Origin: Campylobacteraceae bacterium
GTDB taxonomy: Bacteria; Campylobacterota; Campylobacteria; Campylobacterales; Arcobacteraceae
Direction of reading: 5' to 3'
Length of the DNA stretch: 40,600 nucleotides
NCBI GenBank assembly: GCA_013215985.1
Contig: JABSOL010000006.1
Location: 1 to 40,600 of the forward strand
A program made the translations under genes and the position numbers. The notes beneath the pieces were generated by a model. That model had not been told where the DNA came from and made no database searches. It was given only the letters and a program-made list of their open reading frames with translations. How positions within the stretch are numbered: the stretch's first letter is position 1; every line of letters starts with the position of its first letter. Below, piece by piece: positions 1,095-18,317 of this stretch.

Positions 1095-1751
1095 ATGATT
1101 AATCATAGAAATAAAAATAAATTAAAAAAAGATAGAAATAAAACTATGACAGAACAAGTTTATGAAAAACTTGAGAATTTAATTGTTTTTTGTGAAATTG
1201 AACCTGGCTCAATTTTAACAGAAGCTGAAATAGCAGAAATTGTAGGAGCGGGGAGAACACCAGTTCGAGAAGCTTTAAGACTTTTATCAAAAAGATTTTT
1301 AGTTAATATTTCTAGAGTTGGTATTGTAATTCCTGAAATGAATGCAAGAGTACAATTACAATTATTAGAAGTAAGAAGAGTAATATTAAAACTATGTATG
1401 GAATGTGCCGTTAAAAGATTAACAGAGATAGATAAAAATAATATTCAAGATCTGCTTGATACAATTGATGAGCAAGATGATGTAGAATTTTTACATTGGC
1501 TTAAAAAAAGACAAGAAGTATTAGCTAAATGTTCTAAAAATGAATTTATATATGAAGAGCTTCGTAATGCTCAAGGTTTATCTCGACGTTTTTGGTATTA
1601 TTATGCAAAAAAAGAAGATCATCTCGAAGTTAAAAAATTACATAAACTTATTTTACAAGCAGTATATGATCAAAATGAGAAAAATGCATTAAAATATGTT
1701 GATGAAATGATTGATTATATAGAAGAATTTGTTCGAAGACACTACGTATAA
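1095..1751 (+). CDS. GntR/FCD-family transcriptional regulator
   Basis: 218 residues. Residues 18-80 form the GntR winged helix: a T-E-Q-V-Y-E-K-L helix, PGSILTEAEIAE, then the recognition helix with GRTPVREALRLL (53-64) and a wing ending near GIVIP. Residues 85-210 are helical and read as an FCD effector domain, though the usual FCD metal-binding histidines are mostly not evident. Members of this family usually bind a small carboxylated effector and repress the neighbouring catabolic operon. The ATG directly follows the upstream stop, with GGAG inside the end of that gene. A perfect 48-base palindrome lies 6 bases past the stop and precedes the RidA-to-oxidoreductase genes, which are therefore the likely regulon. 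Confidence 0.88.
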   Translation: MINHRNKNKLKKDRNKTMTEQVYEKLENLIVFCEIEPGSILTEAEIAEIVGAGRTPVREALRLLSKRFLVNISRVGIVIPEMNARVQLQLLEVRRVILKLCMECAVKRLTEIDKNNIQDLLDTIDEQDDVEFLHWLKKRQEVLAKCSKNEFIYEELRNAQGLSRRFWYYYAKKEDHLEVKKLHKLILQAVYDQNEKNALKYVDEMIDYIEEFVRRHYV

Positions 1752-1757
1752 TCCCAA

Positions 1758-1805
1758 TTAACTTAATATATACTTAAGATATATCTTAAGTATATATTAA
1801 GTTAA
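1758..1805. promoter_or_regulatory. Perfect 48-base palindrome, likely operator
   Basis: Every base from 1758 to 1781 pairs with 1805 to 1782. The centre is TCTTAAG/CTTAAGA-like and the outer arms read TTAACTTAATATA. No T-tract follows on the + strand, which argues against a simple terminator. The palindrome sits between the regulator gene and the operon and ends just before a possible -35 element. The arms could give two spaced half-site pairs for a GntR dimer. The operator role is inferred. Confidence 0.55.
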
Positions 1806-1809
1806 CTAA

Positions 1810-1839
1810 TTGTAAACTTTTCCTATCTTATTTTATAAA
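1810..1839 (+). promoter_or_regulatory. Possible promoter of the catabolic operon
   Basis: TTGTAA at 1810-1815, an 18-base gap and TATAAA at 1834-1839 form an acceptable sigma-70 promoter about 40 bases before the RidA start. It directly follows the palindrome, so a protein bound there would meet RNA polymerase. AT-rich sequence makes chance boxes common. Confidence 0.35.
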
Positions 1840-1882
1840 TAAAAAAAATTTATAAAAAAAATTAAATAAGCTAAGGATTACA

Positions 1883-2266
1883 ATGAATAAAAAAACTCCA
1901 GTAAAAACAGACTTATTTGCTTCAAAAGCTCCATTAGAGTGGGCAATTGTTTCTAACAATACTTTATATACAGCTCAAATTCCTATTAATAAAGAAGGTG
2001 CAGTCGTTGTTGGTGGTATAGAAGCTCAGACTAGACAAACAATGGATAACTTAGTTCATACTTTAAAGTGTGCTGGTGTAACATGTAATGAAGTTTTACA
2101 AGTTATGATTTATGTAACAGACAGATCTTATTTAGCAACAGTAAATAAAGTTTATGCTGAATATTTTGAAGCTCCATTTCCAAATAGAGCGGCGATTGTA
2201 GTTGCAGGTCTTGCAAGAGAAGAAATGTTAGTAGAACTTGTAGTTTACGCACAAGCAAGCAAATAA
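1883..2266 (+). CDS. RidA family protein (imine/enamine deaminase)
   Basis: 127 residues, the usual length of the RidA/YjgF/UK114 family. The C-terminal signature is clear: FPNRAAIVVAGL with the substrate-binding arginine R102, then MLVELVVYA with E118. RidA proteins hydrolyse reactive imines or enamines released by amino-acid enzymes; some close relatives act on pathway-specific intermediates. The ATG has AAGGA 6 bases upstream and the next gene starts 21 bases after the stop. Its place as first gene of a catabolic operon suggests a pathway-specific enzyme that handles an enamine or imine product. Whether it is RidA itself or another Rid subgroup cannot be settled by eye. Confidence 0.9.
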   Translation: MNKKTPVKTDLFASKAPLEWAIVSNNTLYTAQIPINKEGAVVVGGIEAQTRQTMDNLVHTLKCAGVTCNEVLQVMIYVTDRSYLATVNKVYAEYFEAPFPNRAAIVVAGLAREEMLVELVVYAQASK

Positions 2267-2287
2267 TAAAAATATTAAGGAAAATTT

Positions 2288-3736
2288 ATGACATATAATT
2301 ACGAAGAAAGTTTATATATTAATGGTTCATGGGAAAAAGGTGTTTCAACTATTGAAAACATTAATCCATCTGATATCTCAGATAATATTGGTAATATTGC
2401 ACAAGCTAGTAGTGAGCAAGTAAATAAAGCAATTAAAGCTGCAAGAATAGCTCAACCTATTTGGGAAAAAACTCCTTTAGAAACAAAATTAAATATTTTA
2501 CAAAAAATTGGTGATGAACTAATTGAGAGATGTGAAGAATTAGGTGAACTTCTAGGAAGAGAAGAAGGAAAATCTAAAGCAGAAGGTAAGGGAGAAATTT
2601 ATAGATCTGGACAATTTTTTCAATATTATGCTGCTGAAGTTCTAAGACAAATGGGTGAAAATGCTTTATCAGTAAGACCTGGTATTGATATTGATGTAAC
2701 TAGAGAAGCTGTTGGAGTTATTGGTATAATCTCACCTTGGAATTTCCCAACTGCAACTGCTGCTTGGAAAATAGCACCTGCTTTAGCTTTTGGAAATGCA
2801 ATTATTTGGAAACCAGCTAATTTAACTCCTGCTTCTGCTATTGCTTTAACTGAAATTATTTCAAGACATGGTTTACCAGATGGTACATTTAATCTTGTTT
2901 TAGGATCAGGGTCAATTGTTGGAAATGAACTTATTAATTCTAAAGAAATTGATGCAATTTCATTTACAGGATCTGTTGAAACAGGAAGAAAAATTGCAAT
3001 TGCTACTGCTGCTAATTTTGTTAAGTGTCAGTTAGAAATGGGTAGTAAAAATGCTTTAGTTATTGCTGATGATGCAGATATCTCTACAGCTGTAGAATCT
3101 GCAATTGCTGGTTCATTTTCAGGAACAGGGCAGAAATGTACTGCTTCTTCAAGGTTAATTGTAACAGAATCTATTCATGATGAATTTGTATCTGCTCTTG
3201 TAAAAAGAATGGGTGATTTAAAGGTTGGACATTATTTAGAAGATGGTATTTTTATGGGACCAGTTTCTGATAAAGCACAATTTGATTCAAACTTTAAATG
3301 GATTGAGAGAACTAAAGAACTTGGTGGTAAATTAGCATTTGGAGGTGAAAAACTATCTATGAAAACTGAAGGTTATTTTATGAGTCCAACTTTATTTGTT
3401 GACACAAAAAATGACTGGGATGTAAACCAAGAAGAAGTATTTGCACCAATGGCTTGTGTTATTAAAGTTAAAGATTTAGATGAAGCTATTAAAACTTGTA
3501 ATGACACTAGATTTGGTTTAACTGCTGGAATTATTACTCAAAGTTTAAAAACTGCAGCAATCTTTAAAAAGTCTGCTCAAAGTGGTTGTGTAATGGTTAA
3601 TTTACCAACTGCAGGAACTGATTACCATGTTCCTTTTGGAGGAAGAAAAGAATCAAGTTTTGGACCACGTGAGCAAGGTTCTTATGCTAAAGAATTTTAC
3701 ACTATTGTTAAAACAACATATCAAAAACCTTATTAG
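2288..3736 (+). CDS. NAD(P)-dependent aldehyde dehydrogenase
   Basis: 482 residues, full length for the ALDH superfamily. It shows SPWNFP (149-154, oxyanion asparagine N152), the KPAN cofactor loop, FTGSVETGRKI, the general base in LEMGSKN (E250), and the nucleophile in GQKCTASS (C284); PMACVIKV follows the EEVFA motif. Overall it is most like succinate-semialdehyde, alpha-ketoglutarate-semialdehyde and related dehydrogenases. LEMGSKN, instead of the common LELGGK, is shared with ketoglutarate-semialdehyde types as I recall. AAGGA precedes the start and the M19-like gene begins 8 bases after the stop. It should oxidise a semialdehyde made in the pathway to a carboxylate; the substrate is unknown. 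Confidence 0.92.
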   Translation: MTYNYEESLYINGSWEKGVSTIENINPSDISDNIGNIAQASSEQVNKAIKAARIAQPIWEKTPLETKLNILQKIGDELIERCEELGELLGREEGKSKAEGKGEIYRSGQFFQYYAAEVLRQMGENALSVRPGIDIDVTREAVGVIGIISPWNFPTATAAWKIAPALAFGNAIIWKPANLTPASAIALTEIISRHGLPDGTFNLVLGSGSIVGNELINSKEIDAISFTGSVETGRKIAIATAANFVKCQLEMGSKNALVIADDADISTAVESAIAGSFSGTGQKCTASSRLIVTESIHDEFVSALVKRMGDLKVGHYLEDGIFMGPVSDKAQFDSNFKWIERTKELGGKLAFGGEKLSMKTEGYFMSPTLFVDTKNDWDVNQEEVFAPMACVIKVKDLDEAIKTCNDTRFGLTAGIITQSLKTAAIFKKSAQSGCVMVNLPTAGTDYHVPFGGRKESSFGPREQGSYAKEFYTIVKTTYQKPY

Positions 3737-3744
3737 GAATTATT

Positions 3745-4734
3745 ATGTATAAAGATCAAATAATTATCGATGGTTTACAATATTGTTATTGGGACCGTTC
3801 TTATTTTGAAAGTTTACAAAGAAGTGGAATTACAGCCGTTCATGTAACTATTGTTTATCATGAAATGGCTAGAGAAACTCTAAGTAGATTTGCACAGTGG
3901 AATAAATATTTTGAGTTATATTCTGATTTAATTATGCCTATTATGAATATGGCTGATGTAAAAATTGCTAAAGAGAAAAAATTAGTTGGAATCTTTTTTG
4001 GTGCACAAAATTGTAGTCCAATAGATGATGAAATTGGTCTAATTGAAGTAATGAGAAAACAAGGTTTACTTATTATGCAATTAACTTATAATAACCAGAG
4101 CTTATTAGCTACTGGTTGTTATGAAAAACATGATAATGGAATCACTAGATTTGGAAAACAAGCAATTGCTGAAATGAATAGAGTTGGCATGATTATAGAT
4201 ATGAGTCATAGTTCTGAAATATCAACACTAGAAGCAATTGATTTATCTTCAAGACCAATTTGTATTTCACATGCAAACCCAAATTTTGCTCATAAAGCGT
4301 TAAGAAATAAATCAAATACAGTAATAAAATCTTTATGTAAAAGAGGAGGATTATTAGGATTTTCTTTATATCCTTTCCATTTACCAAATGCAAGTAAATG
4401 TACTTTAGAAAACTTTACACAAATGATTGCTGATACAGCAGATATGGTTGGAGTTGAACACTTAGCACTTGGAAGTGATTTATGTTTAAATCAACCAACA
4501 GAAGTTTTAGAATGGATGAGAAATGGTAAATGGTCTAAAGCTATGGATTATGGAGAGGGAAGTGCATCAAATTCAGGTTGGCCTGATGATTTACCTTGGT
4601 TTAAAGATGAAAAAGGAATGGAAAATATTTATAATGGCCTTTTAAAACAAGGTTTTAAAGAGAAAGAAGCTAATCAAATTCTTGGCGGGAACTGGTTTAA
4701 CTTCTTAGAGAGCGGTTTAAAAGCTCAAAATTAA
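3745..4734 (+). CDS. M19 dipeptidase-like protein lacking canonical metal ligands
   Basis: 329 residues of the M19 (renal/membrane dipeptidase) TIM-barrel family. It keeps DMSHSS (H155), SHANP (H176) and GSD (D245). The usual N-terminal HxD ligands are replaced (DGLQY, 9-13), and no glutamate occupies the bridging-metal position (FFGAQN, 84-89). It has no signal peptide, so it is cytoplasmic. As I recall, the dipeptidase-like gene of the Pseudomonas dimethylglycine (dgc) locus has the same subgroup features: DGL start, GxQN, TGCYE, AEMNRVGM. That suggests a role in betaine or N-methyl amino-acid breakdown, not peptide hydrolysis. Start has AGGAATT upstream. Family is certain; activity is not. 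Confidence 0.83.
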   Translation: MYKDQIIIDGLQYCYWDRSYFESLQRSGITAVHVTIVYHEMARETLSRFAQWNKYFELYSDLIMPIMNMADVKIAKEKKLVGIFFGAQNCSPIDDEIGLIEVMRKQGLLIMQLTYNNQSLLATGCYEKHDNGITRFGKQAIAEMNRVGMIIDMSHSSEISTLEAIDLSSRPICISHANPNFAHKALRNKSNTVIKSLCKRGGLLGFSLYPFHLPNASKCTLENFTQMIADTADMVGVEHLALGSDLCLNQPTEVLEWMRNGKWSKAMDYGEGSASNSGWPDDLPWFKDEKGMENIYNGLLKQGFKEKEANQILGGNWFNFLESGLKAQN

Positions 4735-4791
4735 TCTTTAAAAGATTTATTTTGGCTTATATTATCAAAAATACCATGATAGGGAGATAAA

Positions 4792-6342
4792 ATGGAAACT
4801 TTGAATAAAAATAGTATTAATATTGAAGAGATTGAGAAAAAAGAAAAAATTGATAAAATATCACTTTTTTTAAGTTCTGGATTTTTAGTTACTTTTGTTG
4901 CTTTAGCTTTATATGATGCTGAATTATTAACAAGTATAGTAAATGCAGGTTTTGGCTGGTCTGCAAAAATTTTTGGTGCATATTGGCAATTTTTATTATT
5001 TGCAACATTTATTGTAGGAATTGGTCTTTCTTTAGGAAGAACAGGTTCTGTAGTTTTAGGTAATTTAAAATCTCCAGAAATGAGTACATTTCAATGGATG
5101 GCTATTATCTTATGTACATTATTAGCTGGTGGTGGAGTGTTTTGGGCAGCAGGTGAACCAATTGCTCACTTTGTATCTCCTCCTCCATTTTATGGTCCTG
5201 AAGCAGATGTTTTTCAAAGAGCAGTTAATGCTTTATCTCAAAGTTTTATGCATTGGGGATTCTTAGCATGGGCAATTTTAGGTACATTAACTACAATTGT
5301 ATTAATGCACTTACATTATGATAAAGGTCTACCTTTAAAACCTAGAACACTTTTATATCCAGTATTTGGGGATAGAGTTATTCATGGACCCTTAGGTTCT
5401 ATTGTTGATGCTGCCTGTATTGTTGCAGTTGCAGCTGGTACTATTGGACCAATTGGATTTTTGGGTTTACAAATTTCATATGCTTTAAATGCATTATTTG
5501 AAATTCCAGATGGTTTCACTACTCAATTAATTATTATTATAATTGCTATTTTAATTTATACTATATCTGCTCTATCAGGTGTTACAAGAGGAATTCAGAT
5601 TTTAAGTAGATGGAATGTAGTTTTAGCTGTTTTTTTAATGGCATATATTTTTATTTTTGGTCCAACTGCTTTTATTATTGATGCTTATATTCAAGGTGTA
5701 GGTTCAGTATTGCAAAACTTTATTCCAATGGCTACATTTAGAGGTGATACTTCTTGGTTAAGTTGGTGGACAGTATTCTTTTGGGGATGGTTTTTAGGTT
5801 ATGGACCTATGATGGCAATTTTTATTGCTAGAATATCAAGAGGAAGAACAATTAGAATGTTAATTTTAGCTGTTAGTATTTTTGCGCCACTAATTACAAT
5901 GTTTTGGTTTACAATTGTAGGTGGATCTGGTTTATCATTTGAAATAGCAGAACCTGGATTAATTTCAGAAGCATTTAAAGGTTTTAATTTACCAGCAGCC
6001 TTATTAGCGATTACACAAGCTTTACCTTTTCCAATAATTACATCAATATTGTTTTTAATTTTAACAACAGTATTTATTGTAACAACAGGAGATTCAATGA
6101 CTTATACTATAAGTGTTGTTGTATCTGGTAATACTGAACCAAATCCATATTTAAGAGTATTTTGGGGAGTATTAATGGGAGTATTAGCAATTGTATTAAT
6201 TTCAATAGGTTCAGGTGGAATATCTGCTTTACAATCATTTATTGTAATAACAGCAGTACCTGTATCTTTAATACTTTTACCCGCATTATGGAATGCACCA
6301 CAAATTGCAATTAAAATGGCAGATGAACAAGGTTTAAAATAA
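4792..6342 (+). CDS. BCCT family betaine/choline/carnitine-type transporter
   Basis: 516 residues with about 12 hydrophobic segments. It shows BCCT hallmarks: GGVFWAAGEPIAHFVSPPP near residue 115, a tryptophan-rich stretch (SWWTVFFWGWF), and FIARISRGRTIR in the cytoplasmic loop. BCCT proteins import zwitterionic quaternary-ammonium or sulfonium compounds by Na+ or H+ symport, or by exchange. The tryptophans match the aromatic box that holds the onium group. The C-terminal tail is short, without the long charged osmosensor tail of BetP, which fits nutritional uptake. GGGAG lies 6 bases before the ATG. Being inside a catabolic operon makes it the likely importer of the substrate. Confidence 0.93.
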   Translation: METLNKNSINIEEIEKKEKIDKISLFLSSGFLVTFVALALYDAELLTSIVNAGFGWSAKIFGAYWQFLLFATFIVGIGLSLGRTGSVVLGNLKSPEMSTFQWMAIILCTLLAGGGVFWAAGEPIAHFVSPPPFYGPEADVFQRAVNALSQSFMHWGFLAWAILGTLTTIVLMHLHYDKGLPLKPRTLLYPVFGDRVIHGPLGSIVDAACIVAVAAGTIGPIGFLGLQISYALNALFEIPDGFTTQLIIIIIAILIYTISALSGVTRGIQILSRWNVVLAVFLMAYIFIFGPTAFIIDAYIQGVGSVLQNFIPMATFRGDTSWLSWWTVFFWGWFLGYGPMMAIFIARISRGRTIRMLILAVSIFAPLITMFWFTIVGGSGLSFEIAEPGLISEAFKGFNLPAALLAITQALPFPIITSILFLILTTVFIVTTGDSMTYTISVVVSGNTEPNPYLRVFWGVLMGVLAIVLISIGSGGISALQSFIVITAVPVSLILLPALWNAPQIAIKMADEQGLK

Positions 6343-6352
6343 AATTTTATAA

Positions 6353-6380
6353 AAAAGAAGTAATATAAATTACTTCTTTT
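6353..6380 (+). terminator. Intra-operon hairpin, possible partial terminator
   Basis: A 12-bp perfect stem (AAAAGAAGTAAT at 6353-6364, ATTACTTCTTTT at 6369-6380) with a 4-base loop is followed by a short T/A-rich stretch. It separates the transporter from the 804-residue protein gene. It could terminate part of the transcripts, protect an upstream mRNA end, or mark two transcription units. No clear new promoter is seen after it. Confidence 0.5.
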
Positions 6381-6397
6381 TATTATAGGAGAGAAGA

Positions 6398-8812
6398 ATG
6401 AAATTAATAAATAATCTAGCACTTAGAGAATCAAGTGATGTTATGAATTTAAAAAGAATGGGTGCAATGCATCAGTCTAGAATATCATTTACAAGAACTC
6501 TAGTTAGAAAAATGGCTAATGAAAATTGGATTGTTAAAAAAAGCCTATGGGATTTATGTGAAAATGGTTATGGTACTGTTATTTATGAGTTGAAAACTCC
6601 AAATAGTATTTATAATTTAGTAGTTTTTTCTAATTATATTGAAGATCATGAAAGAAATGATAGGGTAATTGCAGAAAAGTGGGATGTTACTTTTACTTTA
6701 ATAGATGGTGAAGTAAGTTCAAAACTTTTAAAAATGTTAAAAGATAATGTTCCTTTACAAGAAGCAGGAAGAAATACAAATAGAGCAATGGTATTGGCAC
6801 GTGCTAATAAAAGTGTAAGAGTATTTAATCATATTGTAGAATCTTTAGCCTGTGGTAAACAACCTGATTGTGATGAATTATCAAAAGTTGGTTATATTTT
6901 AAGAACAACAGCCGTATATGGTAGTGGTAAATTTGGTATTACAGATTTTGATAATTTAAAAGATAAAGTAGATTTCTCTCAATCTTTTTCTGCTGAAATG
7001 TGTGCGGTTTATATTCTTAGACAATTTTCTTTAGATTTAGTTAATTATTTAGCTAAAAATAAAGGTAAAGATAAATCAGTTACTTTAGATAAAAATATTC
7101 AAAGATATTTAGGAATAGGGAATGCAACTGGGCTAGGTATGGCACCTTATTTAATCAAACATCCAAAAGTAGTTGATAATTGGTTATATCAAAGAGAATC
7201 AGCATTAAGCCAAGTATCATTAGAAAAAATTACAAAAGAAAAAATTAAAGAAATAAAAAAATACTTATATAGAGCAAAACAGCATCTTAATGAAGTTATT
7301 ACTATTAATGAAAATCAAAAAAAATTAAATATAATTGCAGCAAATGAAATTGATTCAATTATTGAAATAATAGAAAACTCTCTAGTTTCAAATAATATAT
7401 GGGCCAAAATTATAAAAGAAATAAAAGTTTTCTCTTATGAAGCTCAAGAATGTACTATTTCATCTTTAATTGAATTATTTCCATCTTTAGTAGATGAGTA
7501 TGCAAATAAAATGACAATTGATGAACAAGCTTTAGAATTAACAGATATTTCTTTATCTGATTTAAAAACAATATTAAGAGAAAAATATTCGTGGGCAATT
7601 AATATTGATTTCACAAAAGACGATAATAACTACTGGTTTTGGTATGTATCACAAGATAAAGAAGAACCAAGATTAGGAATTAGAAATGTTGATAATGGTA
7701 GTGAGTTAGAACAACCATTAGATATTGCAAGACAAGCAAATAAACTTTATAATAAAATTAAAGATATGAATAATGAAGATACTATTAGTAAGTTTTTATT
7801 ATTAAATCCTGAATTTACATCTATTACTAGAAGAGTTTGGACTATGGGTCATTGTGTAATGGGTGAAATTCAAGCTAATGTATTAGCAAAAGATTTTTTA
7901 CCAATGGATTTATTAAGAGCTAAACTAGCTATGTTTGGTGCTACTAAATTTGATCCAAGATCAGATAGATGGGTACAAGTTACATTTTACCAAAGTGCCC
8001 CTTTATTAGATGAAATTCATGCAAATGAATGGTTGTTCCCCTTATTAGAAAAAAACAAAGATGATAAACTTGATTTTAATGATAATAAAATTTGTGTTTC
8101 ACAAACTGAATTAAAAACTTTATGTGCAAAAGCATTTAATGGATTAAAATTAAAAGCAGGTGAAGCTGATGTAATTGCTAAAATGGTTGTTGAACTTGAA
8201 CTTGTTGGATTAAGAGGAGTTGATCATTTTATTGAAGCATTAGATCATTTAAAAGATGATAATGCTTTAAGTGTTAGTATAGCATCAAGTGAGAATAAGA
8301 TATCAGTTGATTTAGGTTCTTGTAGTATTTTATGTCATTTACAAATTGTATTAGCTTATGCAATTGAGCATATGAAAAACAATGATTATGTACTTCTTGA
8401 AATTAAAAATTGTTATAACAAGTGGTTAAGTTATACTCAGTTAAAAAGATTATCAAGTAAAGAACTAAATGCTAAATTTTATTGGACAAGTTCAAGTGAT
8501 AATAAAAGTATTGAATATTCTATTAATAAAAATGAAGAATATCCAAATGTAAAAATTTCAAATAAATCTTTATTTGAAAAAAATACTTTGATTATAGAAA
8601 TATCAAAAAATAAAATAACTAATGATTCTTTTGATTTAGAGTATGAAAAGATTAAATCTATTACTTTAAAAGACTCTTATAATAATTCGTTAGATAGTGG
8701 TATTTTACTGGAAAAAGATTCTTGGAATAAAATAAAAGAAGTTGCAAAAGGTATACTAGTTGAGTCAAGTGAGAAATCAAAAAATGATGCTGGTGGAGTA
8801 GTTACACTATAA
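6398..8812 (+). CDS. Large uncharacterised cytoplasmic protein
   Basis: 804 residues; I do not recognise the family. It has no signal peptide or membrane segment and mixes regular alpha/beta stretches with charged helices. Striking, probably conserved stretches are near residues 125-150 (NRAMVLARANKSVRVFNH), near 240-260 (GIGNATGLGMAPYL), the WFWYVSQDKEEPRLGIRN segment near 410-425, and RRVWTMGHCVMGEIQAN near 480-496. There is no nucleotide-binding loop and no CxxC cluster. The last 120 residues are Ser/Lys/Asn-rich and look less conserved. GGAGAG precedes the ATG. It lies between the transporter and the molybdoenzyme, 19 bases before the latter, so it is likely a pathway enzyme or partner of that oxidoreductase. 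Confidence 0.8.
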   Translation: MKLINNLALRESSDVMNLKRMGAMHQSRISFTRTLVRKMANENWIVKKSLWDLCENGYGTVIYELKTPNSIYNLVVFSNYIEDHERNDRVIAEKWDVTFTLIDGEVSSKLLKMLKDNVPLQEAGRNTNRAMVLARANKSVRVFNHIVESLACGKQPDCDELSKVGYILRTTAVYGSGKFGITDFDNLKDKVDFSQSFSAEMCAVYILRQFSLDLVNYLAKNKGKDKSVTLDKNIQRYLGIGNATGLGMAPYLIKHPKVVDNWLYQRESALSQVSLEKITKEKIKEIKKYLYRAKQHLNEVITINENQKKLNIIAANEIDSIIEIIENSLVSNNIWAKIIKEIKVFSYEAQECTISSLIELFPSLVDEYANKMTIDEQALELTDISLSDLKTILREKYSWAINIDFTKDDNNYWFWYVSQDKEEPRLGIRNVDNGSELEQPLDIARQANKLYNKIKDMNNEDTISKFLLLNPEFTSITRRVWTMGHCVMGEIQANVLAKDFLPMDLLRAKLAMFGATKFDPRSDRWVQVTFYQSAPLLDEIHANEWLFPLLEKNKDDKLDFNDNKICVSQTELKTLCAKAFNGLKLKAGEADVIAKMVVELELVGLRGVDHFIEALDHLKDDNALSVSIASSENKISVDLGSCSILCHLQIVLAYAIEHMKNNDYVLLEIKNCYNKWLSYTQLKRLSSKELNAKFYWTSSSDNKSIEYSINKNEEYPNVKISNKSLFEKNTLIIEISKNKITNDSFDLEYEKIKSITLKDSYNNSLDSGILLEKDSWNKIKEVAKGILVESSEKSKNDAGGVVTL

Positions 8813-8831
8813 GATATATAAAGGTTAAAAA

Positions 8832-11069
8832 ATGATTGTTGATATAAAAACAGTAAAAACAGCAGGTGGATGGGGTGCTTTAAAATCATCTGGTCATTTT
8901 ATGATAAAAGAAGGTTTTTTTAAAACCTTCAAAACTCTATTATCTGCAAATCAAGTAGATGGTTTTGATTGTCCAGGATGTGCCTGGCCTGATCCAAAAG
9001 AAAAAGATAGATCAATGAATGAATACTGTGAAAATGGTGTTAAAGCAATATCTTTTGAGACTACAGATAAAAGAGCATCAAAAGAGCTATTCTCTAAATA
9101 TACAGTAAAAGAATTAAATGAGTTTGATGTTCATAAAATTACTAATCAGGGACGATTAAGTGAACCTTTTTATTATAATAAAATCACTGATAAGTATGAA
9201 AGTATATCATGGGAAAAATCTTTCTCAATTATAGGAAGACATTTAAAAAATTTAAATAAAGCAGATGATGCAATATTTTATACTTCAGGAAGAACGTCTA
9301 ATGAAGCTGCTTTTTTATATCAGTTAATGGGAAGAATAATAGGTACTAATAATTTTCCTGATTGTTCAAATATGTGTCATGAAAGTTCTGGTGTTGGAAT
9401 GACTGAATCAATTGGTATTGGGAAAGGTACAGTTGATTTAGAAGATTTTGATAAATCAGAGTTAATTATGATTTTTGGTCAAAACCCAGGTACTAATCAT
9501 CCTAGAATGTTAAGCGAATTAAAAAAAGCTAATGAAAGAGGTGCTAAAGTTATTAGCATTAACCCTTTAAAAGAAGCAGGTTTAGTATCATTTATTCATC
9601 CTCAAGACATAAGCCAAATGATTACAAATAAAGCTCAAGCTATAAGTACTCATTATTACCCAATAAAAATGGGTTCAGATATGGCACTTATTCAAGCTAT
9701 TGTAAAATACATTTTAGAAAACTTTGAAAATGATATTGATAAAGACTTTATACAAGAACATACTTTTGGTTTTGAAGAATATAAAAATGAAATATTATCA
9801 AAAGATTGGGATACCTTAATTAAACAAAGTTCATTACAAAAAGATGAAATTATTGAAATAGCCAAATTGTATATGAGTTCAAGCAAAACTATATGTTGCT
9901 GGGCTATGGGTTTAACTCAACATGCTCATGGAGTTGCCACAATAGAAGAAGTAATGAATTTACTTTTATTAAAAGGAAATATAGGAAAAGAAGGAGCAGG
10001 TGCCTGTCCTGTAAGAGGTCATAGTAATGTTCAAGGAGATAGAACAGTAGGAATTGCAGAAGCTCCAAAAGAAGATTTTTTAAAGAAAATTGATAAAGTT
10101 TTTAATTTTACATCTCCAAGATCTCATGGTTATGATGTCGTTCATGCAATTCAAGCTATGCATGAAGAAAAAAACAAAGTATTTATAGGACTTGGTGGAA
10201 ATTTTGCAGCAGCAGCGCCAGATACAAAATATACTTATGAAGCTTTAAGAGCCTGTACTTTAACAGTTCATATTTCTACTCATCTAAATAAAAGTCATTT
10301 AATCTGTGGTAAAGAAGCTTTAATTCTTCCTTGTTTAGGAAGAACAGAATTAGATATACAACAAAGCGGAGTACAAGAAGTTACAGTTGAAGACTCAATG
10401 TCAATGGTACATTCTTCAAAAGGTAAAAATATTCCAGCAACTAGAGATTTAAAATCAGAACCTGCAATAATTGCAGGAATAGCAGATGCTACATTAGGTA
10501 ATAAGAAAGTAGATTTTATAGATCTAATTTCTGATTATTCAAAAATTAGAGAAAAAATAGAAGAAGTATTACCTACTTTTAAAAACTATAATGAAAATAT
10601 AAAAAAACCAGGAGGTTTTGAATTATATAATGGTCCTAAAAATAGAGTATGGTTAACGCCTAATAAAAAAGCTAATTTTTTAATTAATGAAGCACCTGAT
10701 TTAGAATTAAAAGAAAATCATTTAATTTTAATGACAATCAGATCACATGATCAGTTTAATACTACTGTGTATGAAAAAGATGATAGATATAGAGGAATAA
10801 AAAATCAAAGAGAAATAATATTTCTAAATCCAAAAGATATAAAGAAGTTAAATTTTAAGAATGGAGATTTAGTTAATATTACTTCACATTATTCTGATGA
10901 GGTAAATAGAGAAGTTAAAAACTTTAAAATTATTTCTTATGATATTAAAGAAGGTTGTGCTGGTGCATATTTTCCAGAAGCAACACCTTTAGTATCTTTA
11001 AATCATCATGACTCAAAAAGTTTCACACCTTCTTATAAATTTATAGATATTACATTAACTAAAGTATAA
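8832..11069 (+). CDS. FdhF/YdeP-type molybdopterin oxidoreductase
   Basis: 745 residues, close to E. coli YdeP in length. It has no Tat signal, so it is cytoplasmic. FDCPGCAWPDP near the N-terminus (C47, C50, with C66 after) is typical of this family and may hold an iron-sulfur cluster. The Mo-ligand region NMCHESSGVGM aligns with the Sec-His of formate dehydrogenase H and gives C182 as the likely metal ligand. GQNPGTNHPRM, GNIGKEGAGACPVRGHSNVQGDRT and a C-terminal molydopterin-dinucleotide-binding domain (about 630-745) follow. The family is poorly characterised; formate is not assured as substrate. A weak AAGG site precedes the start. As last gene of the block it could carry the oxygen-independent redox step. 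Confidence 0.88.
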   Translation: MIVDIKTVKTAGGWGALKSSGHFMIKEGFFKTFKTLLSANQVDGFDCPGCAWPDPKEKDRSMNEYCENGVKAISFETTDKRASKELFSKYTVKELNEFDVHKITNQGRLSEPFYYNKITDKYESISWEKSFSIIGRHLKNLNKADDAIFYTSGRTSNEAAFLYQLMGRIIGTNNFPDCSNMCHESSGVGMTESIGIGKGTVDLEDFDKSELIMIFGQNPGTNHPRMLSELKKANERGAKVISINPLKEAGLVSFIHPQDISQMITNKAQAISTHYYPIKMGSDMALIQAIVKYILENFENDIDKDFIQEHTFGFEEYKNEILSKDWDTLIKQSSLQKDEIIEIAKLYMSSSKTICCWAMGLTQHAHGVATIEEVMNLLLLKGNIGKEGAGACPVRGHSNVQGDRTVGIAEAPKEDFLKKIDKVFNFTSPRSHGYDVVHAIQAMHEEKNKVFIGLGGNFAAAAPDTKYTYEALRACTLTVHISTHLNKSHLICGKEALILPCLGRTELDIQQSGVQEVTVEDSMSMVHSSKGKNIPATRDLKSEPAIIAGIADATLGNKKVDFIDLISDYSKIREKIEEVLPTFKNYNENIKKPGGFELYNGPKNRVWLTPNKKANFLINEAPDLELKENHLILMTIRSHDQFNTTVYEKDDRYRGIKNQREIIFLNPKDIKKLNFKNGDLVNITSHYSDEVNREVKNFKIISYDIKEGCAGAYFPEATPLVSLNHHDSKSFTPSYKFIDITLTKV

Positions 11070-12905: not shown

Positions 12906-14180
12906 ATGACAATAAATAAATTAATAGTTTTAAGTTTGGCAGCTTGTACTTCACTTTACAGTGCAGGATATAAAATACCAGAACAATCTCTAAACGCAGT
13001 TGCTTTAAGTGCTGCATATGTTGCAAATGCAAATGGTGCAGATGCAGCATATTATAATCCAGCTAATATGGTTTTTTCATCTAGTGAAAATGAATTAGAA
13101 ATGAACTTAACATATATTTCATTACCTAAAATGGATTTTAATGAAACAGAACACTCAAAAGCTGAAAATTTTTTAATACCTACTATACATTATATATTAC
13201 CAAGTAATCTAAAAGATATTAAATTTGGTATATCTTTTGTGGCACCAGGTGGTTTATCAAAAAGATGGGACACTCCTATAGGAAAAACTTTTTCTAAAGA
13301 GTTTACTCTTGAGATTTTAGAATTAAATCCAAGTATTGCATATAAAGTTAATGATAACTTTTCAATTGGTGGTGGTTTAAGATTAATTAAAACTCATGGA
13401 ATCGTCAAAAGTGATGGAATTGCACCTTTACCTTCTTCAACACCTGGTATCGTTAGTAAAGAAACTGGAATCGTAAAAATTAAAAGAAATATGGAAGGTG
13501 ATGATTTATCTTTTGGATATAACTTAGCTTTAACATATAAAGTAAGTAATAAAACTACTCTAGCTGCTACTTATAGATCAAATGTCAATTTAAATATTGA
13601 AGGTAATGCCACATTATCTGCATATACAGAGAATAAATATCTTAATAAACTTAATGGACCAGTTAATACTTCTGCTTCTGTTTCAATACCTTTACCTGCT
13701 GCTTTAAATTTAGCTGTTTCTCATACTTATAATGATTTAACTGTTGAAGCTGTATATGAAAGAACATTTTGGTCAACATATAAAGATTTAGATTTTGAAT
13801 ATGCAAAGGATATTGAAAACCCAGTATTAACTGGAGCTTTTGATGATTCAAAAGATAAATCTTGGAAAGACACTAATACTTATAGAATCGGTTTAACTTA
13901 TATTGCAAGTCCTAAATTAACTGTTATGGGTGCTATAGGATATGATGAAACTCCAGTTCCAACAGAAACTATTGGATTTGAACTTCCAGATGCAAATGCT
14001 AAAATTATTTCAACTGGATTTAAATATAAATTAAGTAAAAAATCTACGTTTGGTATAGCTTATTTATTATCTGTTAAAGATGATAAAAAAGTAACAATGG
14101 TAAATGAAAATAAATTTACTGGTGAATTCTCAAACTCTAAAGTATCTTTGCTTACTGTAGGATACAACTACAAATTCTAA
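12906..14180 (+). CDS. FadL/OmpP1 family outer-membrane channel (copy 1)
   Basis: 424 residues. Signal peptide residues 1-20 end at LYSAG, and the mature protein starts GYKIPEQSLNAVALSAAYVA, the FadL N-terminal hatch region. AAYYNPANM is the family's NPA-type motif, and the rest is amphipathic beta-strands ending in an aromatic-terminated strand (GYNYKF), as needed for barrel assembly. FadL proteins let hydrophobic molecules such as long-chain fatty acids or hydrocarbons cross the outer membrane. It is close to copy 3 (17040-18317) and less so to copy 2. AAAGGA precedes the ATG. With two paralogues and a lipase next door, fatty acid uptake is plausible, but the ligand is unknown. Confidence 0.92.
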   Translation: MTINKLIVLSLAACTSLYSAGYKIPEQSLNAVALSAAYVANANGADAAYYNPANMVFSSSENELEMNLTYISLPKMDFNETEHSKAENFLIPTIHYILPSNLKDIKFGISFVAPGGLSKRWDTPIGKTFSKEFTLEILELNPSIAYKVNDNFSIGGGLRLIKTHGIVKSDGIAPLPSSTPGIVSKETGIVKIKRNMEGDDLSFGYNLALTYKVSNKTTLAATYRSNVNLNIEGNATLSAYTENKYLNKLNGPVNTSASVSIPLPAALNLAVSHTYNDLTVEAVYERTFWSTYKDLDFEYAKDIENPVLTGAFDDSKDKSWKDTNTYRIGLTYIASPKLTVMGAIGYDETPVPTETIGFELPDANAKIISTGFKYKLSKKSTFGIAYLLSVKDDKKVTMVNENKFTGEFSNSKVSLLTVGYNYKF

Positions 14181-14186
14181 AAAAAC

Positions 14187-14219
14187 TAATAATATAAAGA
14201 TTTTTTCTTTATATTATTA
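14187..14219 (+). terminator. Hairpin after FadL copy 1
   Basis: A 14-bp perfect stem (14187-14200 with 14206-14219) with a 5-T loop lies just after the gene. No T-tract follows, so it may be a weak terminator or an mRNA 3'-end stabiliser. Confidence 0.45.
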
Positions 14220-14323
14220 AATACTTATATATTTACTATATACAATATATTAATTATAATTATTTATTTTATACATATTTTTTCTGTGTTATTATTATTT
14301 TACACATAAAAAAGGAGATTTAA

Positions 14324-15646
14324 ATGAATAAAATAATCATAAATCTAAAATATATTGTAATTATTACAATAATTTCATTATTCACAGCTTGCACTAGTGA
14401 AAATGAAGGAACAAACTCAGTTGGAAGTAATTTTGTTGAAGCAAAACTTTTAAACGAAGTTAATGCTACTACTAATTTAGCCTATATAAAAGGTTCTTTT
14501 AAACCTGATGCCACAAATGCATTTTCATATAAATCAATTAAAATTAAGTATAAAACAATAAATCAAGAAGGAAATGAAGTATTGGCTTCGGGTGTTCTTG
14601 TTTTACCTACACCTACAAAAGCTTATCTTCTATACTTGAAATCTTTAGGAAAAACTTTCTCAATCTCAACTATTGTTGAAAATCATGGAACAATATTTAC
14701 TAATGCAGAAGCACCAAGTAAATCAATACTAACTGTTGGGTCTGCAAGTCAAGGAACAGCTTTATTAATGAGCGGACTTTCAGGTTTTGCAGTAGTAATG
14801 CCCGATTATTTAGGTTATGGAGATTCTAATGATTCTTACCATCCCTATATCCTTAAAAAAACATCTGCTAGAGTTTCTATTGATATGTTAAGAGCAAGTG
14901 TTGCTTATATGACAAACAATAATATTATATTTAATGGACAAGTATATATTTCAGGTTATTCAGAAGGTGGTTATGTTGCAATGGCTATGGCTAAAGAATT
15001 GCAAGAAAACTATTCTTCATCATTTAATGTAAAAGCACTTGCTGCAATGGCTGGTCCTTATGATGTTAAGTCATTAGCGGATAAAGAAATTGATGAAAAT
15101 AAAACAATGGTATATCCAGCATTTTTAGCTTACCTTTCTCACTCTTATTTAAAAGCATATTCAGGTTTAAGTTTTAAAGATTCACTTGTATATGAAAATG
15201 AAGAAAATTTTCATAAATTATTTAATGGTAGTAGCACGGGAACTACTATTAATATTTCTTTATTGAATGATACTTTACAAGGTGGATACAATGTTGCAAA
15301 AGCTGATAAATTATTTAAATTATCTTTTATTAACGAATATAAATCAAATGTAAATAATAGCTTCAAAGTTAGATTCTCTGAAAATAATGTATTTGATTGG
15401 GCTCCTCGAACTAAAGTTAATCTTATTCATTGTGTAGATGATGAAATTGTACCTTTTTCTATGTCCCAAACAGCATATGATAAATTTATTTCAAATGGCG
15501 CAAGTAAAAGTAATATTACATTAAGTGCAATTCCAACATCAGCTTTATCAACTGAAGTTACTTTTATTCATAGTAAATGTGGTGAAAAAGCATATGGAGT
15601 TGCCGTAACTTGGTTTGATAAAATTAGAAAAGGAGAAATAAAATAA
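14324..15646 (+). CDS. Secreted lipoprotein, alpha/beta-hydrolase lipase-like
   Basis: 440 residues. The first 22 residues are a lipoprotein signal with lipobox LFTAC, so C23 would be lipidated and the enzyme anchored to a membrane outside the cytoplasm. The nucleophile elbow is GYSEGG (S213), with an oxyanion-side DYLGYGDS segment near 161-168, a VDDEIVPF segment that likely carries the acid aspartate, and a late FIHSKCG histidine. This resembles secretory lipases and cutinase-like esterases (LIP family). GGAG lies before the ATG. It overlaps the following FadL gene by one base, so lipid hydrolysis and uptake of the released fatty acid appear coupled. Substrate chain length cannot be read. 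Confidence 0.85.
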   Translation: MNKIIINLKYIVIITIISLFTACTSENEGTNSVGSNFVEAKLLNEVNATTNLAYIKGSFKPDATNAFSYKSIKIKYKTINQEGNEVLASGVLVLPTPTKAYLLYLKSLGKTFSISTIVENHGTIFTNAEAPSKSILTVGSASQGTALLMSGLSGFAVVMPDYLGYGDSNDSYHPYILKKTSARVSIDMLRASVAYMTNNNIIFNGQVYISGYSEGGYVAMAMAKELQENYSSSFNVKALAAMAGPYDVKSLADKEIDENKTMVYPAFLAYLSHSYLKAYSGLSFKDSLVYENEENFHKLFNGSSTGTTINISLLNDTLQGGYNVAKADKLFKLSFINEYKSNVNNSFKVRFSENNVFDWAPRTKVNLIHCVDDEIVPFSMSQTAYDKFISNGASKSNITLSAIPTSALSTEVTFIHSKCGEKAYGVAVTWFDKIRKGEIK

Positions 15647-16878
15647 TGAAAAATATATTATTAAAAACAAGTCTTTTAAGTATATGTGCTTCAAGTGTTT
15701 TATTAGCTAGTGGATGGAGAATTCCTGAACAAAATTCTTCTTCTATAGCTTTAAGTGGAGCTTTTATTTCAAATTCATATAACGCAAGTTCGTCATATTA
15801 TAATCCTGCAAATATGAGTTTTTCAAAAAGTGAGAATTCAGTAGAATTTGCACTTACTTATATTAACTTATCCAAAATTAAATATAAAGATGCAGATTCA
15901 AGTAAAAATGGTGAATCCTTAAGCGAAGAATTTATTATTCCAAGTATATTCTACTCTTCTAAAGATTATTCAGGTTTTAGATATGGTGCTTCTTTTACAG
16001 CACCAGGTGGTTTATCAAAAAGATGGAATACTCCTTATGCTAAAAAATATGCAGAAGAATTTACTTTGAAAATCTTAGAGTTCAATCCTGTAGTTTCATA
16101 TTTATTAAATCCACAATTAGCAATTGCAGGTGGTATTAGATTTATATATAGTGAAGGAATAGTAAAAAGTGATGGATCTGAAGTTGCTAGTCCTGCAAAA
16201 AGAGAAATGGAAGGTGATACATTTGAATATGGATATAATTTAGCTCTAGCTTATAAACCAACAGCTTATTCTAATATATCATTAACATATAGATCTAATA
16301 TTGATATAAAAGAAGAAGGTAATGCAAAATTATATCTAAGTGGTACAAAAGTTTATGATGGTGGATCTAGTGTAGAGATTCCACTTCCTGCAGTTCTAAC
16401 ATTGGCAAGTTCTTATACATATAAATATACTACGATTGAATTAGTATATGATAGAACATATTGGTCTGTATATAAAGAACTTGATTTTGAATATAAAAGT
16501 TCTATTCCTGCTGTACTAAAACCAGCTTTTGATAATCCAGGAGTTAAAGAATGGAAAGATACAAATGCATATAGAATTGGTTTAACATACAAATATTCAT
16601 CTGATTTAGATTTAATGTTTGGCTTCGCAATTGATGAAAATCCTGTTCCATCAGAATACTTAGGATTTGAACTACCCGATTCTGATGCAAAACTATATTC
16701 ATTTGGATTTAATTATAAAAAAGATAAAAATTCAACAATTGGATTTGGCTATTTATATGATCAAAAAGAAAAAAGAACTGTTTCAAATAAAGATGAAGCA
16801 GGTAATACATATATAAATGGAACATTTACAGATGCTTCTGCACATTTAGTATCAGTATCATACATTTTGTCATTTTAG
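15646..16878 (+). CDS. FadL/OmpP1 family outer-membrane channel (copy 2)
   Basis: 410 residues. Signal peptide about 1-22 ends at LLASG; the mature start GWRIPEQNSSSIALSGAFI and the SSYYNPANM motif are FadL features, and the C-terminus is an aromatic beta-strand (VSYILSF). It is the most divergent of the three copies, with GWRIPEQN instead of KIPEQSLN. The start codon overlaps the stop of the lipase-like gene (TAATG), implying coupled translation. The pair therefore forms a likely functional unit: surface hydrolysis of an ester, then import of the product. Confidence 0.92.
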   Translation: MKNILLKTSLLSICASSVLLASGWRIPEQNSSSIALSGAFISNSYNASSSYYNPANMSFSKSENSVEFALTYINLSKIKYKDADSSKNGESLSEEFIIPSIFYSSKDYSGFRYGASFTAPGGLSKRWNTPYAKKYAEEFTLKILEFNPVVSYLLNPQLAIAGGIRFIYSEGIVKSDGSEVASPAKREMEGDTFEYGYNLALAYKPTAYSNISLTYRSNIDIKEEGNAKLYLSGTKVYDGGSSVEIPLPAVLTLASSYTYKYTTIELVYDRTYWSVYKELDFEYKSSIPAVLKPAFDNPGVKEWKDTNAYRIGLTYKYSSDLDLMFGFAIDENPVPSEYLGFELPDSDAKLYSFGFNYKKDKNSTIGFGYLYDQKEKRTVSNKDEAGNTYINGTFTDASAHLVSVSYILSF

Positions 16879-16908
16879 ATAGATATTAATGTCTTAAATA
16901 AGCTATTT

Positions 16909-16962
16909 TTAAGAATAAAACTTATTAGTTCTTAATTATTATATTAAACTAAGTTTAATATA
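16909..16962 (+). other. Two hairpins between FadL copies 2 and 3
   Basis: TTAAGAA at 16909-16915 pairs with TTCTTAA at 16929-16935, and TATATTAAAC at 16940-16949 pairs with GTTTAATATA at 16953-16962. Neither has a T-tract. They may end the copy 2 transcript or lie in the promoter region of copy 3. Confidence 0.35.
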
Positions 16963-17039
16963 GTACTCTAAATTAATTATTTTATATAATGTATATATTA
17001 TATAGATAATTAAATTAATTAAATTAAATAAGGATTAAA

Positions 17040-18317
17040 ATGAGTTTAAATAAATTTATTGCTCTAAGTCTTGCTGCTGCAACTGCTGCTTATGCTGCTG
17101 CGTACAAGATTCCTGAGCAATCATTAAATGGAACAGCTTTAGGTGCTGCTTATATTGCTAATGCACATGGTGCTGATGCTTCATATTACAACCCTGCAAA
17201 TATGGTTTTTTCATCTGATGATAACGAATTAGAACTTGGCCTATCATATGTAAGTGCTTCAGAAATTGATTTTGAGACAAGTGGACCATATACTCCATAT
17301 TCAAGTTCATCAGAAAAAGAAAATGTAGTAATTCCTACATTACATTATATCATTCCATCATCTATTAAAAATACTAAATTTGGAGTTTCACTTGTTGCTC
17401 CTGCTGGATTATCAAAAAGATGGAATGCACCTTTTGCAAAAACATATGCAGAAGAATTTACTTTGAAAATTGTAGAATTAAACCCTACTATTGGATATAA
17501 AATCAATGATAAATTAGCAATTGGTGGAGGTCTAAGATTTGTATATACTAAAGGTATTGTAAAAAATCAAGGAGCAGCTAAAATTGGTTCTAAATATGTT
17601 CCAATGAAAAGAGATTTAGAAGCTGATTCTTTTGATTATGGTTATAATCTTGCTTTAACATATAAACCTCTTAAAAATACAGTTTTAGCTATGACGTATA
17701 GATCATTTGTTGATATTGAAGTAAATGGAACTGGAACATTATTTTATAAACATCCTTCTTTTCCTAGCGCCTATAAGTATGATGGTGATGCATCTATTAA
17801 ATTCCCATTACCTGCTTCATTAAATATTGCAATTGCACAAACTTTTGGTGATTTAACAGCTGAATTTGTTTATGAACGAACGTATTGGTCTGAGTATAAA
17901 GTAATCGATTTTAATTATAATAAAGATCTTTCTACTCCTCTTGATACGAATCTTGCCTATTCTTTGTTTGACAAACCAAGAGATAAGAATTGGAAAGATA
18001 CAAATTCTTATAAATTAGGTCTTACATATAAAGCTAATAAAGATTTAACTTTAATGGGATCATATGGAATTGATGAATCTCCAGCTCCAACTGATACATT
18101 AGCATTTGAACTTCCAGATGCAGATGCAAAAGTATATTCGTTAGGATTTGATTATAAATTAAATAAAACTTCTTCTTTTGGAATGGCTTATTTAATTTCT
18201 GTTAAAGATGATAGAAAAGTAGAAATTGAAACAGGAACAGGAAATCCAAAAGTTCCAGGTGAATTTAAAAACTCTTCTGTTTCATTGTTAACTCTAGGTT
18301 ATACTCACAAGTTTTAG
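17040..18317 (+). CDS. FadL/OmpP1 family outer-membrane channel (copy 3)
   Basis: 425 residues. Signal peptide 1-20 (alanine-rich, ending YAAA), mature start YKIPEQSLNGTALGAAYIA, ASYYNPANM motif, and closing strand LGYTHKF. It matches copy 1 closely along its whole length, including AGLSKRWNAPF and the late ELPDADAK segment, so the two arose by a fairly recent duplication. AAGGA precedes the ATG and a separate 161-base leader with hairpins suggests its own promoter. It meets the comF-like gene tail to tail, only 6 bases apart. Confidence 0.92.
   Translation: MSLNKFIALSLAAATAAYAAAYKIPEQSLNGTALGAAYIANAHGADASYYNPANMVFSSDDNELELGLSYVSASEIDFETSGPYTPYSSSSEKENVVIPTLHYIIPSSIKNTKFGVSLVAPAGLSKRWNAPFAKTYAEEFTLKIVELNPTIGYKINDKLAIGGGLRFVYTKGIVKNQGAAKIGSKYVPMKRDLEADSFDYGYNLALTYKPLKNTVLAMTYRSFVDIEVNGTGTLFYKHPSFPSAYKYDGDASIKFPLPASLNIAIAQTFGDLTAEFVYERTYWSEYKVIDFNYNKDLSTPLDTNLAYSLFDKPRDKNWKDTNSYKLGLTYKANKDLTLMGSYGIDESPAPTDTLAFELPDADAKVYSLGFDYKLNKTSSFGMAYLISVKDDRKVEIETGTGNPKVPGEFKNSSVSLLTLGYTHKF

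Follow-up and report, generated by a model that had tools for sequence, protein, structure and literature searches.

A conserved Campylobacterota operon with a RidA-family enzyme that may break down an N-methylated pyridinium betaine such as homarine

The window analysed here is a 40,600-nt stretch of contig JABSOL010000006.1 from a marine relative of Arcobacter, whose numbering is used throughout, and the subject of this study is an operon at positions 1095-11069 which, as discussed below, may degrade an N-methylated pyridinium betaine. These positions are filled by seven intact open reading frames on one strand, encoding a GntR-type regulator, a RidA-family protein, an aldehyde dehydrogenase (ALDH), an M19-family protein, a BCCT-type importer, an 804-aa protein and an FdhF/YdeP-type molybdoenzyme, with intergenic gaps in gene order of 131, 21, 8, 57, 55 and 19 bases. 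A preliminary description of this DNA had reported seven genes in a single orientation with short gaps and a palindrome, and both its coordinates and its reading frames were confirmed. The features of the operon are as follows.

1095-1751, + strand: GntR/FCD-type regulator (Pfam GntR 2.7e-13, FCD 1.1e-7)
1756-1807, no strand: palindrome of 52 bases, proposed operator, with the core ACTTANNATATATNNTAAGT at 1772-1791
1883-2266, + strand: RidA-family imine/enamine deaminase with the catalytic Arg in a PNRA motif (Pfam Ribonuc_L-PSP PF01042, 8e-23)
2288-3736, + strand: aldehyde dehydrogenase (Aldedh), whose nearest profiles are alpha-ketoglutaric semialdehyde dehydrogenases
3745-4734, + strand: non-canonical M19 amidohydrolase (Pfam Peptidase_M19 2.8e-66)
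4792-6342, + strand: BCCT-type betaine importer (Pfam BCCT PF02028 2e-149, residues 26-503)
6398-8812, + strand: 804-aa fusion of an approximately 550-aa protein (hereafter 548) with DUF3726 (3.4e-11), proposed ring opener
8832-11069, + strand: FdhF/YdeP-type molybdopterin oxidoreductase, proposed formate dehydrogenase (TIGR01701 909.6 bits; Pfam Molybdopterin)

The 804-aa gene was detected in eight of 104 Arcobacteraceae genomes, and in all eight the set GntR-RidA-ALDH-M19-BCCT-804-FdhF is found together; in one of them (G095) the contig ends within fdhF, and a second fdhF piece was found on a separate contig. Independent scatter of the genes among relatives, which the preliminary description had named as the observation that would speak against a single operon, is thus ruled out in Arcobacteraceae, as the entire set adjoins all eight 804-aa genes. 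FdhF itself was found in nine of the 104 genomes at E <= 1e-60, eight of which are the operon carriers (hypergeometric 3.5e-11 for co-occurrence with the 804-aa gene, kinship ignored), and the ninth (G090) has fdhF without the operon, next to a glutamine-amidotransferase gene. In Arcobacteraceae the 804-aa gene always occurs with FdhF, and FdhF is separable from it. A sample of 397 Campylobacterota genomes yielded two further carriers from other families, G193 and G199, both of which have RidA-ALDH-M19-BCCT-804. The former additionally has GntR, with FdhF not adjacent to the operon; in the latter no GntR match was found in the stretch, and the contig stops after the 804-aa gene. Five loci (L016-L020) have a porin gene inserted between gntR and ridA; the porin of L018 gives a Porin_4/OprD match, those of the other four are 83-98% identical to it, and that of L017 is split in two pieces. 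No porin gene was found in the stretches of the window, L001, L021, L028 and L029.

Beyond Campylobacterota, a tblastn search with the 804-aa protein gave 168 plasmid records, 21 of which were examined, comprising 16 loci at at least 37% identity and five distant ones. The ten Campylobacterota loci and these 16 plasmid loci make up the 26 core loci considered below, and every one of them has the core ALDH-M19-548-DUF3726, across Campylobacterota, Vibrio, Pseudomonas, Caballeronia and alphaproteobacteria. The DUF3726 counterpart is a separate gene in 15 of the 26 (by annotation or blast; the match is weak in L003, 1e-5 to 4e-8) and is fused in Campylobacterota and in Mesorhizobium L007. A betaine-type importer is present in 24 of the 26: 19 have a BCCT protein, 18 of these above 490 bits and one less similar (L059, 25% identical to that of the window), and five (L004, L054, L056, L058 and L061) have a glycine-betaine-type ATP-binding cassette (ABC) transporter in place of BCCT. 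The other two are L007, with a branched-chain-type ABC system, and the unannotated L057. Compared to Ruegeria TM1040 and Phaeobacter, the window proteins are 58-59% (ALDH), 51-54% (M19), 56-58% (BCCT) and 39% (548 part) identical, and the window shares its core with the roseobacter operon that adjoins an mgd-type operon. The tree places the Campylobacterota together as a clade next to Vibrio and groups the loci with an Ldh-family gene in another clade (100/99), with a Sulfitobacter locus inside it; the placement of the long branches of Pseudomonas and Caballeronia is uncertain. The seven-gene set is a real, conserved catabolic operon, and the earlier notion of one uptake-and-breakdown operon is supported.

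More distant 548/DUF3726-like pairs, at approximately 24-31% identity, are found in different genetic surroundings in rhizobia and one haloarchaeon (L048, L049, L050, L051 and L062). Their neighbours are M19, an ABC transporter and an aminotransferase on Sinorhizobium meliloti pSymB, ALDH and an ABC transporter in Mesorhizobium ciceri, an M19-like gene and an ABC transporter in Neorhizobium, and ALDH and BCCT in Natrinema, the haloarchaeon. Since the pair is found in differing gene sets, it appears to form the reaction core of a wider, multi-substrate enzyme family. One scan of genome contigs gave a single locus, and a scan of viral contigs with the family alignment gave 71 stretches, none of which was confirmed.

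The main difference among the core loci concerns the enzyme that accompanies the core. A window-type RidA (at least 58% identity) is present in 14 of the 26, namely ten Campylobacterota, two Vibrio, Caballeronia and Pseudomonas, and an Ldh-family oxidoreductase is present in 11 others, alphaproteobacterial versions without a RidA match; the two were never found together. The PNRA motif was seen in all eight window-type RidA proteins that were aligned from the 14 loci, and the PDB relatives of RidA include RidA/YabJ and the 2-aminomuconate deaminase 6izh. The deaminase activity of Rid proteins is stated to depend on an arginine (Arg105 of RidA; PMC5619798, PMC4433059), and the words dipeptidase, betaine, semialdehyde and sarcosine are absent from PMC4433059, which concerns Rid gene clusters. 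The RidA of the window keeps the catalytic arginine, in line with the earlier idea that it acts on an enamine or imine.

For Ldh, the nearest solved structure is delta1-piperideine-2-carboxylate reductase (1wtj, 4.5e-73), an enzyme class that also forms N-methyl amino acids from alpha-keto acids and methylamine. A four-subunit operon of the sarcosine-oxidase/Mgd type with an AraC/GlxA regulator lies near five of the 11 Ldh loci (L005, L006, L058, L059 and L061) and none of the other 15 (Fisher 0.007, kinship ignored), as scored within stretches that extend beyond the operon by approximately 4-8 kb on its upstream side (0.9 kb in L053) and 8-10 kb on its downstream side. In addition, purU is located beside two Ldh-type loci and folD beside one. 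According to PMC13390433, the AraC-type gene tmaR adjoins mgdABCD in Ruegeria pomeroyi, this neighbourhood is common, and Mgd is cited there as participating in homarine catabolism. Neither partner was detected in the ten operon-bearing Campylobacterota genomes: there was no Ldh match, and a MgdB query, which is Mgd by synteny only, found no orthologue, giving weak generic amine-oxidase matches in eight genomes (best 58.6 bits, 24% identity), none in two, and 962 and 876 bits in two control records. Taken together, the mutual exclusion of RidA and Ldh, the Mgd linkage and the Campylobacterota genomes lacking Ldh and MgdB matches lead us to propose that both enzymes act on the same N-methyl alpha-imino or enamino acid. 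RidA would hydrolyse this N-methyl enamine/imine to 2-oxoglutarate and methylamine, and in loci of the Ldh type, reduction of this imine would give N-methylglutamate, to be demethylated to glutamate by Mgd. The preliminary description had let the enamine route through RidA give N-methyl amino acids; this is reversed here, as RidA would lead away from them by imine hydrolysis, and the enzyme making the N-methyl amino acid would be the DpkA-like Ldh, replaced by RidA in the window.

These observations incline us, at about even odds, to regard the operon as the version, in Campylobacterota, of a widely distributed operon that handles an N-methylated pyridinium betaine, with homarine as the most likely substrate and RidA as the exit enzyme. 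Homarine (N-methylpicolinate, N-methylpyridinium-2-carboxylate) is an abundant osmolyte of marine algae and animals. The preliminary description had named it as one candidate among N-methyl betaines; its place as the best single candidate is favored by the betaine-type importers and by the mgd-type operon near Ldh loci. It is also reported that Ruegeria pomeroyi draws down homarine rapidly (PMC12817926). In the proposed route, BCCT would import the substrate, assisted in five relatives by the OprD-type porin, and the 804-aa protein would open the ring by cleavage between C5 and C6, leaving a formyl group on the methylated nitrogen and a C5 semialdehyde. The semialdehyde would be oxidised by ALDH, the altered M19 protein would strip the remaining one-carbon (formyl) group to give the enamine on which RidA may act, and the formate released may be oxidised by the FdhF-like enzyme. 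The overall balance, homarine + O2 + 3 H2O = 2-oxoglutarate + methylamine + formate, is a four-electron oxidation of which ALDH takes two. The operon, earlier called complete, would thus need one two-electron oxidation beyond ALDH.

The candidate for ring opening, the 804-aa protein, was previously described as unrecognised. This is no longer true of its C-terminal third, in which Pfam detects DUF3726 at residues 567-633, and still applies to the part of about 550 residues, which has no known relative. In Ruegeria, Aminobacter, Phaeobacter, Pseudomonas and Vibrio, among others, the two parts are encoded by distinct genes that adjoin each other. There are 36 invariant columns among 18 family sequences; the 26 core sequences have 53 invariant positions of the types H, C, D, E, K, R, Y, W, N, Q, S and T, including one His and no Cys, which argues against an iron- or heme-type oxygenase, and eight Arg residues stay invariant even with five distant members added. 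PDB searches by single sequence or by profile found no relatives of the 804-aa protein, the AlphaFold model of the single window sequence was of low confidence (mean pLDDT 37.3, pTM 0.24), and neither assigned a fold. DUF3726 showed a weak resemblance to Ldh2 (hhalign probability 20%, pairwise E 0.0011), with an Ldh_2 match in one of 18 family members (E 0.25), and no paper on DUF3726 was found in the library searched.

The highest scores of the ALDH are 475 bits with alpha-ketoglutaric semialdehyde dehydrogenase (NF042993) and 463 bits with dioxovalerate dehydrogenase (NF052305), compared to 301 bits with the 2-hydroxymuconic semialdehyde model, and all three fall short of their cut-offs; no PDB match was found at E <= 1e-100. 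This is consistent with the semialdehyde substrate assumed in the preliminary description. Dipeptidases of the M19 family bind two zinc ions through an HxD motif, a Glu, two His and an Asp. When 17 M19 proteins, all but one of which come from core loci, were aligned, the N-terminal HxD was found to be missing and the bridging Glu to be aligned to a Gln (GAQN), with the His, His and Asp kept, except that one of these His is Asp in a Shinella protein, and the annotated Sulfitobacter protein begins too late for its N-terminus to be judged. The nearest solved structure, 2i5g ("amidohydrolase", 2.3e-56), likewise reads DGL and GFQN there. Because these metal ligands are lost, a dipeptidase function was rejected.

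The main chemical rival, which keeps the operon and the substrate class and which we consider rather unlikely, is a route that starts with simple hydration, opening the ring to give N-methyl-2-aminomuconate semialdehyde. From this, ALDH would form N-methyl-2-aminomuconate, RidA, acting like 2-aminomuconate deaminase, would release 4-oxalocrotonate and methylamine, and M19 would be a decarboxylase, with no O2 required and no carbon lost. It would suit an M19 protein without dipeptidase ligands and an 804-aa protein whose one invariant His and lack of invariant Cys speak against a metal-dependent oxygenase, and 2-aminomuconate deaminase, which is among the PDB matches of RidA (6izh), is described, as AmnE, as a RidA-subfamily protein (PMC6742747). 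However, the ALDH fits the alpha-ketoglutaric semialdehyde models far better than the 2-hydroxymuconic one, the seven genes include no 4-oxalocrotonate decarboxylase or hydratase, and a six-carbon skeleton does not give N-methylglutamate, which is said to be a product of homarine.

The FdhF/YdeP protein scores well above the TIGR01701 cut-off of 582.15. Its C182-H183 align with the Cys-His of 7qv7 (FdhF of CO2 reductase) and with the X-His of 9t1s, and R395 aligns with the Arg of PLRGQNNVQG in solved formate dehydrogenases; Bacillus YjgC (8rqz) has Gln for the His. Cys or Sec, His and Arg are the active-site residues of formate dehydrogenases. Only three Cys (47, 50 and 66) occur in the first 90 residues. 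No FdhF match was found in the stretches of the 16 core loci outside Campylobacterota, nor any FdhF-like match in the whole genome G193 at E <= 1e-30, and in Caballeronia a 50% identical FdhF/YdeP protein is encoded elsewhere on the operon's plasmid. Judged by these comparisons, FdhF/YdeP appears to be an Arcobacteraceae-specific addition and seems to be an optional formate oxidiser with an accessory genomic role. The preliminary description had suggested that it may carry out the key oxidation, in place of an oxygenase. Its tie to the operon in Arcobacteraceae and the one oxidation left unassigned in the electron balance would suit such a role, but core loci elsewhere stand without it, which speaks against an oxygenase stand-in, G090 has it alone beside the glutamine amidotransferase gene, and its Cys, His and Arg match those of formate dehydrogenases. 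We regard this role as very improbable, and the molybdoenzyme was rejected as an oxygenase substitute because it is neither beside the 16 other operons nor in G193.

The genome of the window also contains a further formate-dehydrogenase-like gene (G000:C254:10914-11762) with an in-frame TGA, probably encoding selenocysteine.

Several points weigh against degradation of homarine with a RidA exit. The substrate and chemistry of the operon are proposed from sequence comparison, and identity with the published homarine pathway is presumed, partly from the mgd linkage. The action of RidA on a secondary imine and that of M19 as a deformylase are both putative. As ALDH covers two of the four electrons, ring opening would need O2 and a reductant, or another oxidant is missing; given the second formate-dehydrogenase-like gene in the window's genome and the lack of FdhF in G193, formate oxidation need not depend on FdhF/YdeP. 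The exclusion between RidA and Ldh closely tracks phylogeny and could stem from one historical switch, so the counts are not independent. Sulfitobacter W027 (L053) has neither a window-type RidA nor Ldh and carries a distant RidA-family gene instead, and L007 has a branched-chain-type ABC transporter rather than a betaine importer. The four-subunit enzymes match generic sarcosine-oxidase models only and may not be Mgd, and for the AraC protein near the TM1040 locus the best match, which stays below cut-off, is GbdR, a regulator for glycine betaine.

This last observation would also fit a different substrate for the same core, such as stachydrine, trigonelline, carnitine, glycine betaine or another quaternary amine, which we judge to have roughly one chance in a handful or slightly better. 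BCCT and betaine-type ABC importers are not specific, genes for a Rieske oxygenase and a FAD-dependent oxidoreductase lie near the Phaeobacter and Pseudomonas loci, and the distant family members in Sinorhizobium, Mesorhizobium, Neorhizobium and Natrinema have other gene sets. On the other hand, the conserved core has no demethylating oxygenase or methyltransferase, and a DpkA-kind imine reductase beside a possible mgd operon fits the N-methyl alpha-imino acid expected from ring opening of N-methylpicolinate.

With homarine as the preferred substrate, the operon can be compared with described systems. A homarine operon homABCDER, with N-methylglutamate and glutamate as products, was reportedly described in 2026 (Ferrer-Gonzalez et al., Nat Microbiol 11:1531). 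If hom is the TM1040 operon LysR-ALDH-M19-(BCCT)-548-DUF3726-Ldh, five enzymes and a regulator match the letters of its name, and four of the five protein families are present in the window, which differs from the TM1040 operon in having GntR instead of LysR, RidA instead of Ldh, the 548-DUF3726 fusion and an added FdhF/YdeP, with no mgd found in the genome. The modified meta pathway of AmnE, which includes a semialdehyde dehydrogenase, resembles the window in that a RidA-subfamily enzyme hydrolyses an unsaturated alpha-amino acid as a catabolic step, whereas the imine of the window would be N-methylated, and none of the operon's genes was recognised as belonging to a ring-cleavage dioxygenase family. 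The trigonelline pathway TgnABCDE, in which the ring of an N-methylpyridinium carboxylate is opened, formate and methylamine are lost and an aldehyde dehydrogenase takes part, is similar to the route proposed here, but the Pfam matches of the window operon include no flavin monooxygenase and its ring-opening candidate belongs to a family with no known relative. FdhF resembles formate dehydrogenase H/YdeP in its TIGR01701 score and its Cys-His and Arg positions, and differs in having three early Cys only.

The core has probably already been described in roseobacters, and what sets the window apart as a variant is its control by GntR and an operator, its exit through RidA, the fused 804-aa protein and the molybdenum enzyme, unless the 2026 homarine paper has them too. 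As a tentative extension, the 548 and DUF3726 pair may be a new ring-opening family, extending from Campylobacterota to an archaeon and lacking the conserved His and Cys of metal oxygenases, and RidA-type bacteria may run a second, shorter homarine pathway to 2-oxoglutarate and free methylamine. If the homarine reading is right, some Arcobacteraceae and other Campylobacterota would join the homarine degraders (no paper pairing homarine with Arcobacter was found in the library searched), and the fate of homarine nitrogen and methyl would be set by the exit enzyme, either RidA (methylamine) or Ldh with Mgd (glutamate and folate-bound one-carbon units). One marine osmolyte would then have two ecological outcomes, methylamine being released or the methyl group kept in the folate pool, and the uncharacterised DUF3726 family would be a likely ring opener whose enzymology is directly testable.

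Regulation appears to be specific to this operon. The arms of the palindrome span 26 bases with one mismatch allowed, compared to a maximum of 16 in 500 dinucleotide shuffles of the same 131 bases. Its core ACTTANNATATATNNTAAGT was searched in the ten operon-bearing Campylobacterota whole genomes (26.6 Mb), where approximately 0.33 sites are expected from base composition; nine sites were found in six genomes, all of them between gntR and the porin gene or ridA of this operon, and the reversed-pattern control gave none. Since these loci supplied the pattern, finding it in them is expected by design, and the informative result is that there are no sites elsewhere. One genome (G070) has a copy with one mismatch, and the core was not found in G093, G193 and G199. 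The GntR protein has relatives of 64-98% identity in the seven other Arcobacteraceae loci and of 64% in L028, with none found in L029. As core sites are confined to this operon, the two look like a one-operon regulator-operator pair, in which the palindrome would be a dedicated operator that GntR binds and releases when the substrate is present.

Downstream of fdhF, L018 (14191-18319) and L020 (12703-16005) have a small Trans_reg_C-like gene together with another GntR gene, which shares 69-71% identity with that of the window. These stretches also encode a DctP TRAP binding protein and a member of the arylmalonate-decarboxylase/racemase family, and are possibly a linked substrate module.

In the window, an exonuclease-type gene (249-1094) lies upstream of the operon, its last base abutting the start of gntR, and downstream there is a pair of genes in the opposite direction that we take, from their translations, to be hisA- and hisH-like. 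Further along, three consecutive FadL/TodX-type outer-membrane proteins, with a secretory-lipase-like protein between the first two, are encoded at 12906-18317, which is likely a fatty-acid or hydrocarbon uptake cluster. On the - strand, 24431-25465 and 25930-27033 hold two tRNA thiolation genes of the MnmA type (tRNA_Me_trans), located near each other.

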